Shown one piece after another: positions 1,798 through 31,584 of a stretch of DNA of 33,651 nt. The stretch is from Acidobacteriota bacterium. GTDB lineage: Bacteria > Acidobacteriota > Aminicenantia > UBA2199. Below the pieces are notes generated by a model. It was not told the DNA's origin, searched no databases, and saw only the letters and a program-made list of their open reading frames with translations. Location of the stretch: contig JALOLA010000040.1 in assembly GCA_025456205.1 (NCBI GenBank), forward strand, positions 1 to 33,651, in the 5' to 3' direction. Each line of letters starts with the position of its first letter. The stretch's first letter is position 1. Made by a program: the position numbers and the translations under genes.

Positions 1798-2798
1798 GAA
1801 AACACGTCACCGTCTTCACCCTGCTTTTCCTGGCCACGGGCCTGGCGTTGGCCTCAGGCGGGCGGCCGCGAGGCTGGTTCGTCGCCGCTTCGGCTGCCTT
1901 CTCCTGGCTGGCCCCCGGCGACCTGAACGCCCGGGCCGAGGCCCAGCAGGCGATTACGGATTTCACCTACGAGGCGGGATACGAGGCGCAGCAGCGCCAG
2001 GCGGCCGGCACCTTCACCTACGCGCTGCAGGAGGCGGAGGGATCGGGACTGAAGGGAATCCGCGATGGCTTCCCCCTCACCCTGCGCGCCGGCCGCGTCA
2101 TCGGCCCGCGCGTCGCGGTCTTCGCCGGGCTGCAATTCCTCGGGCGCCGCCGCACCTCGATGCTGCGGCAGGAATACCAGGTCAGCGACCGGCGCCCCGA
2201 CCAGGTGACCCCCGCCGGGGACTACCGGGTCGAGATCGCCTATCCCGATTATTTCCTGGCCGCGCGGGCCTGGATCCCGCAGTTGGGAGTGACCATCGAC
2301 CTGGCGCAAAAAAAGAACTGGACGGCCGGTGTCAGCCTGGCCGCCGGCCCCATGTTCGCGTCGCTGCGCACCATCGAGGCGCAGCATTACAAAAAGACGG
2401 ATGCGGACGGCTACTGGACCGAGTCGCGATACGTTTACGACATGAAGGGCAAGGGCATCGGCGCCGCCGTGGAGGCGCTGGCCCGCCTGGCGCTGCCGCT
2501 CGGCCGGCGCCTCAGCCTGGACCTGGCGGCCGGCTACGCGCTGCGCATCGGCTCGCGCTTTTCCGGCCCCGGGTCCTATGAATACCGCTACCGCGACAGC
2601 AACGCCGCCCGCGACGGGGTGAGCTACTCCTGGGAAGACGGGGCGTGGCGCACGCGGCGCCTGGAGATCCAGCGCCAATGGGGCGAACTGGCCTACACCC
2701 TCTCCGGGAACGACCTGGCCGGCTTCGCGGACAGCGGCGAATTCCGCCTCGACCTCTCGGGCTGGCAGCTGGCGCTCGGGCTGACGCTGGCCTTGTAG
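1794..2798 (+). CDS. predicted secreted/outer-membrane beta-barrel-like protein
   Basis: A 334-residue protein translationally coupled to the M1 peptidase (ATGA overlap at 1794-1797). It begins with a typical signal peptide (basic MRKH, hydrophobic core about residues 5-19, cleavage near ALASGG). The rest has many alternating polar/hydrophobic strands rich in Tyr, Arg and Asp. The final segment ends with alternating hydrophobic residues (GWQLALGLTLAL), which suits a last transmembrane beta-strand. I see no enzymatic motif. The partnership with a lipoprotein peptidase suggests an envelope role, but no function can be named. Confidence 0.6.
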   Translation: MRKHVTVFTLLFLATGLALASGGRPRGWFVAASAAFSWLAPGDLNARAEAQQAITDFTYEAGYEAQQRQAAGTFTYALQEAEGSGLKGIRDGFPLTLRAGRVIGPRVAVFAGLQFLGRRRTSMLRQEYQVSDRRPDQVTPAGDYRVEIAYPDYFLAARAWIPQLGVTIDLAQKKNWTAGVSLAAGPMFASLRTIEAQHYKKTDADGYWTESRYVYDMKGKGIGAAVEALARLALPLGRRLSLDLAAGYALRIGSRFSGPGSYEYRYRDSNAARDGVSYSWEDGAWRTRRLEIQRQWGELAYTLSGNDLAGFADSGEFRLDLSGWQLALGLTLAL

Positions 2799-2826
2799 CC
2801 GGCATGGGTCGGCGCCGGGCGGGCGG

Positions 2827-2855
2827 TTGAAGTCCGGGCGGATCTCCATTACAAT
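2827..2855 (+). promoter_or_regulatory. sigma-70-type promoter of the first epimerase gene; predicts leaderless mRNA
   Basis: A -35 box TTGAAG (2827-2832) and a -10 box TACAAT (2850-2855) are separated by 17 bp. Only 6 nt separate the -10 box from ATG 2862, so the expected +1 is the A of that ATG. There is no Shine-Dalgarno sequence. This decides against the GTG at 2856. Confidence 0.6.
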
Positions 2856-2861
2856 GTGGGC

Positions 2862-3896
2862 ATGGTAGAGATCGAGCTGCGCGCACATCATGACGATGAC
2901 CCCGGCCTGAGGAACAAGACCATCCTGGTGACCGGGGCGGCCGGGTTCATCGGCAGCCATCTCGTGCGCGAGCTGCGGCGTCGCTGCGACCGGGTGATCT
3001 GCCTGGTCCGGCCGGGCGAGGACATTTCCCGGATCGCCGACCTGGGTTGCCGAATCCACTATGGTGACCTGCTGGACACATCGACCCTCACTGGCGCCGT
3101 CGGCGGCGTCGATACCATCTTTCACCTTGCGGCCGTGATGGGCGGCGTGTCGCCCGAGAGGCTTTTCCAGGTGAATTTTCAGGGGACAAAGAACCTCGTC
3201 GAGGCCTGTCGCGAGCAGGGCGTGGTGCCGGAGCGCTTCATCTTCGCTTCCAGCGTGACGGTCATGGGGCCTTCGGGGAAAGATCGTTTGTTGAATGAGG
3301 ACGCGCCCTGCCGGCCGTTGAGCGTCTATGGCAAGAGCAAGCTGGCGGCCGAGGAATTCCTGGCTTCCAGGGAGAACACCCTGCCCTACACGATCATCCG
3401 CCTGCCCGTGGTATACGGCCCCGGGAGCGACGGCGGCCTGTATATTTTTTTCAAGCTCATGAGCAAGGGGCTGCAGGTGAATGTCGGCACGCTGGAGGCG
3501 ACGGTCTGTTTCGTCTGGGACGTGGTCCAGGGCATGATCGCCGCCGCCGGGTGCCCGCGGACGCGCGGGGAAACCTATATCCTGGGGGAGGAGAAATCCT
3601 ATCAGCTGAGGCAGATCTACCAGACGATCGCCGCGATCCTGGGCAGGCGCACCATCACTCTGCCCTTGCCCTATTTCGTGCTGCACGTGCTCTCGTTTTT
3701 CGTGGAGATCCATTCCAGGCTGACCAGGTCCATCCCGGTCATGACCCGGGAGGAGCTCACCATGTACCTGAAGAACCATTACTGGAAGTACGACACCCGC
3801 AAGGCGCGCCGGGACTTCGGCTTTCAAAGCCGCTATCCGTTCGCCGAGGGCGCGGGAATCACCATCGACTGGTACCGGAAGAATGGCTACATGTGA
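2862..3896 (+). CDS. NAD-dependent epimerase/dehydratase-like protein (extended SDR), copy 1
   Basis: A 344-residue extended short-chain dehydrogenase/reductase. The nucleotide-binding glycine motif GAAGFIG is at residues 25-31. A serine-bearing strand (FIFASSVTVMG) precedes the catalytic pair YGKSK (Y156, K160). The substrate half includes VVYGPGSDGG, and the C-terminus carries a KYDTRKARRDFGF segment, common in 3-beta-HSD-like and sugar epimerase-like members. The start at ATG 2862 follows from the promoter just upstream. The gene is followed 30 bp later by a paralogue with the same motif order, so the two were probably duplicated in place. Substrate is unknown: sugar nucleotide, sterol/hopanoid-like and flavonoid-like reductases share this fold. 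Confidence 0.85.
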   Translation: MVEIELRAHHDDDPGLRNKTILVTGAAGFIGSHLVRELRRRCDRVICLVRPGEDISRIADLGCRIHYGDLLDTSTLTGAVGGVDTIFHLAAVMGGVSPERLFQVNFQGTKNLVEACREQGVVPERFIFASSVTVMGPSGKDRLLNEDAPCRPLSVYGKSKLAAEEFLASRENTLPYTIIRLPVVYGPGSDGGLYIFFKLMSKGLQVNVGTLEATVCFVWDVVQGMIAAAGCPRTRGETYILGEEKSYQLRQIYQTIAAILGRRTITLPLPYFVLHVLSFFVEIHSRLTRSIPVMTREELTMYLKNHYWKYDTRKARRDFGFQSRYPFAEGAGITIDWYRKNGYM

Positions 3897-22636: not shown

Positions 22637-22826
22637 CGTAACGCGTGACGCGTAACGCGGGAAGAAATGGACTTAAATTCCAAGCACCAAGCACCAAATT
22701 CCAAATAAATTCAAAGCTCCAAATTCCAATGTCAAAAACGAAGGCCCTTTCATTGCCTTATTTTTTGTTTGGGTCATTGGATTTTGGTGCTTGTTTGTGA
22801 TTTGGTACTTATGATTTGGAATTTTA
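22637..22826. repeat. ACGCGT heptads followed by a large AAATTCC-type inverted repeat
   Basis: ACGCGTG, ACGCGTA and ACGCGGG lie in tandem at 22641-22661 with no facing partner. Then comes an imperfect palindrome of about 150 bp: left arm 22674-22736 in 7-nt steps (AAATTCC, AAGCACC, AAGCACC, AAATTCC), right arm about 22746-22826 whose reverse complement reads AAATTCC, AAATCAT, AAGTACC, AAATCAC. The A/T-rich composition contrasts sharply with the flanking genes. No coding potential. Confidence 0.8.
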
Positions 22827-27252: not shown

Positions 27253-27375
27253 ACGTGACGCGTAACGCGTGACGCGTGACGCGAAAGAATAAAATAGTGC
27301 CTTTCTCTTTTGAATCACGAATTCCGAATTACGTAGTTCTGAAAGCTCATTCACGGATCACGCAGACCTGAAAGC
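27253..27375. repeat. ACGCGT heptads plus GAATNNC heptads in a divergent gap
   Basis: ACGCGTA, ACGCGTG, ACGCGTG, ACGCGAA in tandem at 27258-27285. Then GAATCAC, GAATTCC, GAATTAC at 27312-27332. CTGAAAGC occurs as a direct repeat at 27339-27346 and 27368-27375. No facing ACGCGT arm is seen. The gap separates the divergently read deaminase and beta-grasp genes. Confidence 0.7.
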
Positions 27376-29712: not shown

Positions 29713-29874
29713 CCGTGACGCGTAACGCGTGACGCGTGACACGCGGCAGCCAGTTGGCAACTTTTTTTATTTCGGGGTAAAAAAGTATGGTTGAGTAATG
29801 AATGAGAAGAGTAAGTAAGTTCAAGACAGACATCTTGCTTTTTCGCGTTACGCGTTACGCGTCACGCGTCACGT
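29713..29874. repeat. ACGCGT-type heptameric inverted repeat pair
   Basis: Left arm 29713-29746 has ACGCGTA, ACGCGTG, ACGCGTG. Right arm 29844-29871 has CGCGTTA, CGCGTTA, CGCGTCA, CGCGTCA. The arms are near-perfect reverse complements with about 97 nt between. The loop contains AGTT-GGC-AACT followed by seven T (about 29753-29769), which could act as a weak terminator for tdk. It occupies most of the tdk/EamA gap. Confidence 0.85.
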
Positions 29875-29895: not shown

Positions 29896-30765
29896 ATGAA
29901 TGAATTGATCTCCCACCGTCAACCTCGCGAACTGCGCCTGGGCATCCTGGCCATGGTCGCCACCGCCTTCCTGTGGAGCATCGCCGGGCTGTTCATCAAG
30001 GTTATCGACTGGAACCCGTTCGCCATCGCCGGCGCCCGCAGCCTTATCTCCTCGCTGGTCGTGCTGGCCTGGCTGCGCCGGCCGCGCTTCCACTGGTCGC
30101 CGGCGCAGGTCGGCGCCGCCCTCACCCAGGCAATGACCATGCTGCTCTTCGTCTCGGCCAACAAGACCACCACCGCGGCCAACGCCATCCTGCTGCAGTA
30201 CGTGGGGCCGGTGTTCACCGCCATCATCGGCGCCTGGCTGCTCAAGGAGCGGGCGCGCTGGGAGCACTGGCTCGCCTTTGCCTTCGTCGGCGCCGGCATG
30301 GTCCTTCTCTTCATGGACAAGCTGGGCGGCGGCCGCCTGCTGGGCAACGTCCTGGCGCTGCTGTCGGGGCTGGTCTTCAGCTTCTACTACATCTTCATGC
30401 GCATGCAGAAGGACGGGTCGCCGCTGGAGTCGATCCTGCTGGCGCACTGGCTCACCGCCGCCATCGGCCTGGGGGTGGCGCTCTTCCTGCCGTGCCCCGT
30501 CCTCACCTGGAAGGCGGCCGGCGCCATCGCCATGCTGGGGATCTTCCAGGTCGGGGCTGCGGCCATCCTCTTCTCCTACGCCATCAAGCGCATCACGGCC
30601 ATCTCCGCCAACCTGGTCGCCGTCATCGAGCCGGTCTTCAACCCGTTGTGGGTGTTCCTGGCCCTGCGCGAGCGGCCGGGCGTCCATGCCATCGTCGGCG
30701 GCGCCATCATCATCGCCGCCGTGACCGGAGCGTCCATCATCAGTGCCCGGAGGGCGGCTACGTGA
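29896..30765 (+). CDS. EamA/DMT-superfamily transporter
   Basis: A 289-residue protein with ten hydrophobic helices in two EamA halves (about residues 16-140 and 150-285). It has the usual 'NKTTTAANAILLQYVGPVFTAIIGAWLLKER' signature region near the end of the first half and 'ANLVAVIEPVFNPLWVFLALRER' in the second. This family exports amino acids or other metabolites. No ribosome site or good -10 box is visible before ATG 29896. The stop codon TGA (30763-30765) is formed by the first bases of the following heptameric repeat. Confidence 0.88.
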   Translation: MNELISHRQPRELRLGILAMVATAFLWSIAGLFIKVIDWNPFAIAGARSLISSLVVLAWLRRPRFHWSPAQVGAALTQAMTMLLFVSANKTTTAANAILLQYVGPVFTAIIGAWLLKERARWEHWLAFAFVGAGMVLLFMDKLGGGRLLGNVLALLSGLVFSFYYIFMRMQKDGSPLESILLAHWLTAAIGLGVALFLPCPVLTWKAAGAIAMLGIFQVGAAAILFSYAIKRITAISANLVAVIEPVFNPLWVFLALRERPGVHAIVGGAIIIAAVTGASIISARRAAT

Positions 30766-31013
30766 CGCGTGACGCGTGACGCGTAACGCGGAAGAATTAG
30801 GCATAAATTTCCAATCACAAACATATCCCAAGTTCCAAGTTCCAACGACCAAATCAAACGCAATTTAAATTTTCTTCAGGTAGGGGTTTGATTAATCCAA
30901 CCCTACACCGTCGTTTTGATTCTTTTTCTTCGTTTATGTTATTGGTGTTTGTCAGGTGCAGGGAATTTCAGCCTGCTTCTTCTCATGTCACGCGTTACGC
31001 GTCACGCGTCACA
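30760..31013. repeat. nested heptameric inverted repeat (ACGCGT outer arms, TTCCAAN inner arms, central hairpin)
   Basis: Outer left arm 30765-30792: ACGCGTG, ACGCGTG, ACGCGTA, ACGCGGA. Outer right arm 30991-31011: CGCGTTA, CGCGTCA, CGCGTCA. Inner arms: TTCCAAG, TTCCAAC and CACAAAC motifs at about 30809-30870, facing GATTC...TATTGGTGTTTGTC at about 30916-30953. Centre: GTAGGG (30880-30885) and CCCTAC (30901-30906) form a hairpin. The whole gap between the EamA and YjbQ genes is this structure. Confidence 0.82.
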
Positions 31014-31042
31014 TATTTCTATGCCGGACGTTCATATTCGGT

Positions 31043-31048
31043 TATAAT
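31043..31048 (+). promoter_or_regulatory. -10 box of yjbQ; predicts leaderless mRNA
   Basis: Perfect TATAAT lies 6 nt before ATG 31055 with no ribosome site. No convincing -35 box; the repeat arm ends 29 bp upstream of it. Confidence 0.5.
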
Positions 31049-31054
31049 CCCTCT

Positions 31055-31474
31055 ATGAAAAGCTATCGCAAGGAACTGTGGTTCCAGACCCCCGGCCGGC
31101 GCGCCTTCATCAACATCACCCCCGACGTCGAGCGGGCGCTGGCCGAGAGCGGCGTCCGCGAGGGCCTGGCGCTGGTCAACGCCATGCACATCACGGCCTC
31201 GGTGTTCATCAATGACGACGAGTCGGGGCTGCACCAGGACTATGAAAAGTGGCTGGAAAAGCTGGCCCCGCACGAGCCGGTCTCGGCCTACCGCCACAAC
31301 CTCAGCGGCGAGGACAACGGCGATGCCCACCTGAAGCGCCAGGTCATGGGCCGCGAGGTGGTGGTGGCGGTCAGCGGCGGCCGCCTCGACTTCGGCCCCT
31401 GGGAGCGGATCTTCTACGGCGAGTTCGACGGCAGGAGGAAGAAGCGCGTGCTGGTCAAGATCATAGGAGAATAA
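31055..31474 (+). CDS. yjbQ: YjbQ/UPF0047-family protein
   Basis: A 139-residue protein, the usual family length. The start ATG 31055 ([12 protein letters not shown]) matches the family N-terminus. It carries the characteristic [31 protein letters not shown] core and the C-terminal [31 protein letters not shown] segment. Members form trimers with a metal-like site from His residues and can substitute weakly for thiamine phosphate synthase in E. coli; the physiological role is unclear. Confidence 0.93.
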
Positions 31475-31479
31475 CCCTC

Positions 31480-31584
31480 GGCGCAGGGTGCAAGGCGCAA
31501 GGTGCAAGGCAAGAAAATTTGCATGCCATTTTTATGCTCCTTATCTTTCTTCCCTACGCCCTTCGCCCTTCACCTTACGCCGAG
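31480..31584. repeat. GGCGNAA-type heptameric inverted repeat pair, second copy
   Basis: Left arm 31480-31514: GGCGCAG, GGTGCAA, GGCGCAA, GGTGCAA, GGCAAGA. Right arm about 31550-31584: CGCCCTT, CGCCCTT, CACCTTA, CGCCGAG. Same unit type and geometry as the element at 19757-19858. It starts 5 bp after the yjbQ stop and ends 18 bp before the next -35 box. Confidence 0.82.

Follow-up and report, generated by a model that had tools for sequence, protein, structure and literature searches.

Layered heptad-repeat hairpins behind the genes of an Acidobacteriota genus differ between species at the same sites

The gap between the EamA transporter and UPF0047/YjbQ genes of an Acidobacteriota bacterium (lineage Aminicenantia, assembly GCA_025456205.1) carries a long imperfect hairpin, which on balance is probably one copy of a modular, REP/MITE-like intergenic repeat that forms hairpins, is dispersed genus-wide and turns over fast, here with an A-type (CGTRACG) arm pair around a B-type core and a small palindrome in the middle. 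Copies of the repeat are dispersed, keep a fixed arm size and orientation, lie preferentially at gene 3' ends, combine their layers independently and change in content between species. Positions given below refer to the window, that is, the whole stretch of 33,651 nt analysed (contig JALOLA010000040.1), and its features are collected in Table 1.

A layered hairpin between EamA and YjbQ

A preliminary description had placed a nested inverted repeat at 30760-31013, and it is real: the hairpin spans 30759-31015 and folds as RNA with a minimum free energy of -96 kcal/mol, compared with -56.2 +/- 4.6 for 200 shuffled sequences, none of which is as low (z = -8.6). Its outer arms (30759-30787 and 30987-31015) are 29 nt long and 90% complementary, and include a perfect (100%) inverted repeat of 22 nt (30769-30790/30991-31012). 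They had been described as ACGCGT heptad arms; the arms are present, but their unit is better written as CGTRACG, seven bases in four copies. The left arm of 28 nt is itself quasi-palindromic (30761-30774/30775-30788, 86%). The inner TTCCAA/CACAAAC arms exist as well (30806-30859 versus 30886-30955), although they form a looser and weaker layer than the outer ones, and the B-type core to which they belong is about 79% identical over 57-58 nt to cores in three other species (G002, G009 and G015). The hairpin reported at the centre is likewise found as a near-palindrome. A second copy of it was not detected in the approximately 2 Mb sampled, and the GTAGGG hairpin was therefore rejected as a repeat family. 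The interior of the element (30791-30985) is AT-rich, with 38% GC compared to 64.8% in the window and 67.5% in EamA. The element lacks the T run that would follow the GC-rich stem of an intrinsic terminator, and no Rfam covariance model matched at the gathering threshold or at E <= 1. The claim that the whole gap is filled holds up to about 31015, but some 40 nt, a promoter-sized stretch, remain before the YjbQ ATG at 31055.

Table 1. Coordinates of the repeat layers, flanking genes and further arrays in the window
Feature	Position	Strand	Remarks
A array, then B-type array	22637..22706	+	
A array	27254..27283	+	adjoins start of a minus-strand gene (divergent gap)
Second CGTRACG inverted pair	29714..29873	no strand	29714-29741 and 29844-29873; fills tdk-EamA gap
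EamA transporter gene (PF00892)	29896..30765	+	
Left outer arm, four CGTRACG heptads (states G,G,G,A) and CG	30761..30790	+	about 45 copies of this arm in the genome
EamA stop codon TGA	30763..30765	+	within heptad 1 (ACG-TGA)
Second layer, left side, GAAGAATTAGGCATAAATTTCC	30791..30812	+	77% complementary to 30961-30982
B-type core, left side, TTCCAAG heptads and CACAAAC	30806..30859	+	resembles cores of other elements in the genus
Central near-palindrome GTAGGGGTTTGATTAATCCAACCCTAC	30880..30906	no strand	27 nt
Second layer, right side	30961..30982	-	pairs with 30791-30812
Right outer arm, reverse complement of left type	30987..31013	-	states from outside G,G,A,G
UPF0047/YjbQ gene (PF01894)	31055..31474	+	
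Inverted pair of another heptad type (GGCGCAA ... CCCTACG)	31480..31581	no strand	behind YjbQ; arrays at 31480 and 31552

The nearest EamA relatives are found in Candidatus Aminicenantes, including UBA2199, UBA6072 and UBA2190. As proposed, the EamA stop codon is supplied by the first heptad, and in most of 11 orthologs from the same genus it is read inside a heptad, too. The further claim that the element defines the C-terminus did not survive the comparison, since the protein of close relatives ends 2-5 residues past ISARR whether a repeat is present or not. Relatives without any repeat thus share the EamA end, which indicates that the element reached the stop codon and did not reshape the protein. 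In accordance with the boundary expected there, alignable sequence between EamA orthologs stops at the stop codon. On the other side of the element, the plus strand is open in all frames across the right arms (30956-31474 and 30888-31058), so that automatic gene calling may place the YjbQ start too far upstream and add a peptide resembling ALRVTRHI. Annotators should treat such N-terminal extensions as false, while the stop codons supplied by left arms are genuine.

A repeat family of four-unit arms

All genomes used are metagenome-assembled, each was read in part, and genes were called with a codon model for this analysis. The window's own genome was sampled as stretches totalling 377 kb, of which 58 kb are noncoding, and contains 86 matches to the window region. 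A search for exact four-heptad A arms through 60 genomes, whose reversed-pattern control gave 0, found 46 in the window's genome, between 0 and 130 in each of 15 other species of the genus, and a single match in 44 genomes from other genera of the class. The CGTRACG arm type is hence nearly confined to the genus. More generally, the 58 kb of noncoding DNA hold 79 arrays of period 7, compared with none in shuffled sequence and 8 in coding DNA, and periods 5, 8 and 10 give near-zero counts in the same sample. Most arrays have about four units, stand in facing inverted pairs and begin some 0-25 nt after a stop codon. They represent at least ten heptad types, among them CGTRACG, GTTCGAN, AAAAGGC, GTGACAA, TTAGACG, CAGTAGT, GGCGTAR, CGGTTGA, GTGATGC, ATTCGTG, GTGAAAA and CCAAATT.

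The size of the arm is fixed. Allowing up to two mismatches, 171 A arms were detected, 146 of them with exactly four heptads, and four whole units are the mode in every sampled species, with shorter arrays under-counted because the detection pattern is itself four units long. The variant order G-A-G-G is preferred in four of five species. Together, length and order reject a simple slippage array. The consensus flanking the arm varies by species (CTA, CGANCTAT, CTT), and in one of them (G005) conservation extends well past the heptads, with CGANCTAT on the outer and GARCAGCA on the inner side.

Some arrays depart from this format or from this genus. One A array (L081, G000:C102:4457-4570) comprises 16 heptads as alternating ACGTGACGCGTAAC 14-mers, far above the usual four. 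In another genome (L135/L136, G005:C56, around 2650-3150), units of about 155 bp, every one with a full A array plus an AAAAGGC array, are repeated in tandem, which makes this a composite element amplified locally. Multiple copies of the GTTCGAN type are also present in one further Acidobacteriota genus, which means that some of the heptad types are not exclusive to the genus studied here. Period-7 arrays also occur in Desulfobacteraceae and other proteobacterial genomes (L042-L046), one of them of the same TTCGAAC type (L042:3130), an indication that some heptad types are common to several phyla.

Arms and cores assort independently

The interiors enclosed by A arms have little in common. In G005 they range from 34 to 263 nt and are mostly unrelated to one another, and A-pair interiors are mostly without structure of their own (median z -0.6), the 12 of 47 that fall below -2 being chiefly type B cores. 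These cores are 88-96% identical at unlinked gaps, where the outer arms can differ. Two gaps of one contig (G015 C5, gaps 16 and 49) share cores with 90% identity over 234 nt inside different outer arrays, and G002 has, between EamA and YjbQ, a core that matches another one elsewhere in its genome with 90% identity over 271 nt. Between two close species (G009C31 gap 23 versus G015C11 gap 13), one has an extra heptad array outside the shared core, adjoining the stop codon. The purine/pyrimidine (R/Y) states of left and right arms are no more alike than those of shuffled pairs or than the genome consensus predicts, so the two arms need not have arrived together. The layers thus assort independently. 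The earlier suggestion of insertion or stepwise growth gains from these separable, freely combined layers and from the array added outside a shared core, whereas the target-site duplication that would mark an insertion was absent from all 46 paired elements (offsets 0-21, k = 2-9).

Elements sit behind stop codons

The placement of the arms follows the reading direction of the neighbouring genes. A arms facing gene 3' ends mostly begin between -19 and +24 nt from the stop codon, and their starts cluster at -5, -12 and -19, meaning that the stop is supplied by heptad 1, 2 or 3. Those facing gene starts are mostly 50-130 nt away, beyond the promoter. Paired elements occupy 18 convergent, 24 tandem and 4 divergent gaps, out of 55, 112 and 64 such gaps of at least 100 nt, and the difference between convergent (18/55) and divergent gaps (4/64) has p = 0.0003. 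Since 7 mod 3 = 1, the inward strand of an arm, as read from the gene, often has stops in all three frames. This applies to 72 of 158 arrays on the inward but to 15 of 158 on the opposite strand; by consensus unit, the values are 57% inward, 15% opposite and 35% for shuffled units. An element landing in the last codons consequently terminates the protein at once, which may explain why elements are tolerated at gene ends.

Turnover at orthologous gaps

The gap between tdk and EamA illustrates how the content of one site varies. In seven species of the genus it holds CGTGACG, AGACGTY, GTTCGAA with AAAAGGC (two species), GTGACAA, ACGGCGT with CCAAATT, or nothing, the empty gap belonging to the species of L014. 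Across ortholog gap comparisons, which are not independent of one another, arrays are present in both species in 45 cases, in neither in 33 and in one only in 10, and the heptad types usually differ. They do so even where the flanking genes are about 94% identical. None of the ortholog gaps compared showed an element cleanly inserted into an empty site with no other change.

Three close species (G015, G009 and G002), with coding sequences 91-94% identical and third positions 84-89%, allow the gaps themselves to be aligned. Element-free gaps are alignable over a median 99% of their length, compared with 72% for gaps with elements. At most 38% is alignable in 6 of 13 element gaps versus 2 of 12 element-free ones. 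The difference in alignability is of borderline significance (p = 0.049). In one divergent gap with near-identical flanks, an AGGGAAG-type hairpin in one species and a GGTGTAA-type hairpin in the other occupy the same coordinates.

How the elements may arise and spread

In the reading that we favour, elements would be assembled from single arms, each about 28-48 nt long and in most cases made of four 7-bp units, which form inverted pairs as the ends of MITEs or the halves of REP dimers do. Several types of arm would be copied around the genome, presumably by transposition, and so would at least one larger palindromic core, that of type B. Copies would build up downstream of a stop codon, in the dispensable sequence that extends to the next promoter and where they do least harm, and would stack or nest there. 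The instability of palindromes is established, and deletion of such sequences, along with recombination between copies, could account for loss and exchange and would leave sister species with different hairpins in the same gap. Copying is favoured over local slippage by three features: the four-unit format is fixed, copies share a master sequence, and cores are paralogous. At the same time, the missing target duplications, the unlinked RAYT genes and the mixed arm types set the elements apart from a textbook MITE or REPIN.

The RAYT-type genes examined are linked to other repeats. Y1_Tnp matches occur in 33 of 41 genomes. Four full-length RAYT-type genes of 288-327 aa in G015 (C1:8618-9482, C1:22447-23311, C13:4521-5502 and C17 at about 464 kb; L165-L169) are flanked by GGTCAGGTCT...AGACCTGACC inverted repeats and make up a REP system of their own within the genus. 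A fifth Y1_Tnp gene is flanked by GTAGGGG repeats and is the sole one of the five near heptad arrays, at about 130 nt. A transposase with heptad-element ends was not found among the Y1_Tnp loci examined, and a RAYT-mobilised REP was rejected because RAYT-type loci carry other repeats. Autonomous copies were rejected as well, as the large array-flanked inserts between orthologs of G009 and G015 held ordinary genes or Y1_Tnp with REPs of its own. At one locus (L166, G015:C11, about 212955-213564), a 203-aa Y1_Tnp amid GTAGGGGCGGG-type REPs is inserted beside a GTTCGAN/AAAAGGC heptad element.

A more specific proposal, which we regard as rather unlikely, is a mobile repeat class not described before. 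Its unit would be the single arm of four 7-mers, moved by some enzyme that acts immediately after stop codons, where it would insert arms or exchange them; as the 7-bp period gives many arms three-frame stops on the gene-facing strand, gene ends could be replaced repeatedly without harm to the protein.

The elements might instead owe their position to a function. A 3'-end structure or protein-binding array, acting as a transcription roadblock, a stabiliser of mRNA 3' ends or a nucleoid or regulator site, could be kept in place by selection while its sequence types are exchanged. The gap position is indeed maintained across species though its content changes, the arm sequence is defined, and the elements strongly prefer sites behind stop codons and in convergent gaps. 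Similar four-heptanucleotide elements of Geobacter have been proposed as regulatory or IHF/HU sites (PMC2700814). We nevertheless find a functional array improbable. The window element has no terminator-like site, and at another locus (G000C102 gap 67 versus G002C48 gap 111) a perfectly conserved bidirectional terminator adjoins a swapped element, which is therefore unneeded for termination there. Compensatory R/Y pairing was not found, A-C mismatches numbering 39 versus 36.5 expected from shuffled pairs; mixed, non-complementary arm pairs are common, and one species does without any element between tdk and EamA.

Origin in situ, by 7-bp slippage at 3'-end palindromes and by strand switching in which one arm serves as the template for the other, would require no mobility. 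Period-7 arrays are compatible with slippage, and slippage over the polymerase contact length has been proposed for bacterial heptamers (PMC4692102). Mixed arrays of types A and E exist (L143, L144 and L146), and in L013 an EamA array of another type (GTGATGC) begins at nearly the same codon. However, slippage would not confine arms so sharply to four units in place of a broad range, nor would it explain why one arm sequence recurs, variant order included, at dozens of unlinked loci, or why near-identical cores occur at unlinked gaps. Copying of one arm onto the other is, in addition, at odds with R/Y states that agree no better within an element than in shuffled pairs. Already weakened by the shared master sequences, this origin appears distinctly unlikely. 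Finally, arms and cores at fixed sites could be swapped without new insertion if dispersed copies undergo gene conversion or homologous recombination with one another. This process would suit the mosaics with a common core but different arms, the converse cases and the independent exchange of left and right arrays, but it is very unlikely given that the unrelated arrays swapped at tdk-EamA (five types in seven species) share no sequence except their flanks on which to recombine.

Relation to known repeats

The element resembles known small mobile repeats and fully matches none. Layered hairpins of many heptad types swapped at orthologous sites are not described in the open-access literature that we found, which also yielded nothing on tandem repeats of Aminicenantes.

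REP sequences and their BIME/REPIN dimers come close: they too have arm-sized units (28 nt here) in inverted pairs, lie behind genes in tandem and convergent gaps, and form genus-specific families (PMC3733652). The 28-nt arm, in about 45 copies, corresponds to a dispersed, self-palindromic REP unit of 20-40 nt, and it too lies behind genes in tandem or convergent orientation, often as inverted dimers. Unlike REPs, its flanks have no conserved GTAG or CGTC 5' tag, its units are heptads, and repeats of other kinds surround the RAYT genes of the genus. MITEs and the small mobile RU/ERIC-type sequences of enterobacteria are likewise noncoding, dispersed and 100-350 bp long with terminal inverted repeats, and the common B core recalls their interior. 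In contrast to them, the present elements lack target duplications and may differ in type between left and right ends; most A pairs are unrelated inside, while B cores share up to 90% over 234-271 nt.

Among heptad repeats, Geobacter metallireducens contains four-heptanucleotide elements, GGGACCG in four units and 49 copies, as well as paired MTYCTGA arrays (class 3), which its authors interpreted as regulator (IHF/HU) sites (PMC2700814). Four or five tandem 7-mers are dispersed mostly in noncoding DNA, those of class 3 as inverted pairs on both strands. A arrays share the four tandem 7-mers, dispersal and pairing, a similarity of kind only, as the sequences differ. The Geobacter elements use other heptads, also occur inside genes and have one type per class, whereas many types are swapped at the same gaps here; turnover across species is not described in the parts consulted.

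Similarly, the heptameric repeats of Xanthomonas (GGGAATC) and Nostoc (GGGGAYT) have 7-bp units enriched 0-50 bp from stop codons on the coding strand, with some inverted pairs, and relatives keep the gene context while the content varies. They differ in having one type per genome, which is retained between relatives, in forming G-quadruplexes, in their variable copy number and in the absence of layered cores (PMC4692102). TAACTGA repeats of Beggiatoaceae, Cyanobacteria and Bacteroidetes are also dispersed intergenic heptamer arrays, patchy across phyla and with stop codons in the heptad, but they are direct, lie upstream of start codons and are hardly ever inverted (PMC4679880).

Heptamer arrays are thus known in several bacterial phyla, and their origin has no accepted explanation. 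A single genus with many types, a fixed four-unit format, a consistent orientation behind genes and sister species that differ site by site makes slippage, transposition and recombination directly testable by the comparison of close strains.
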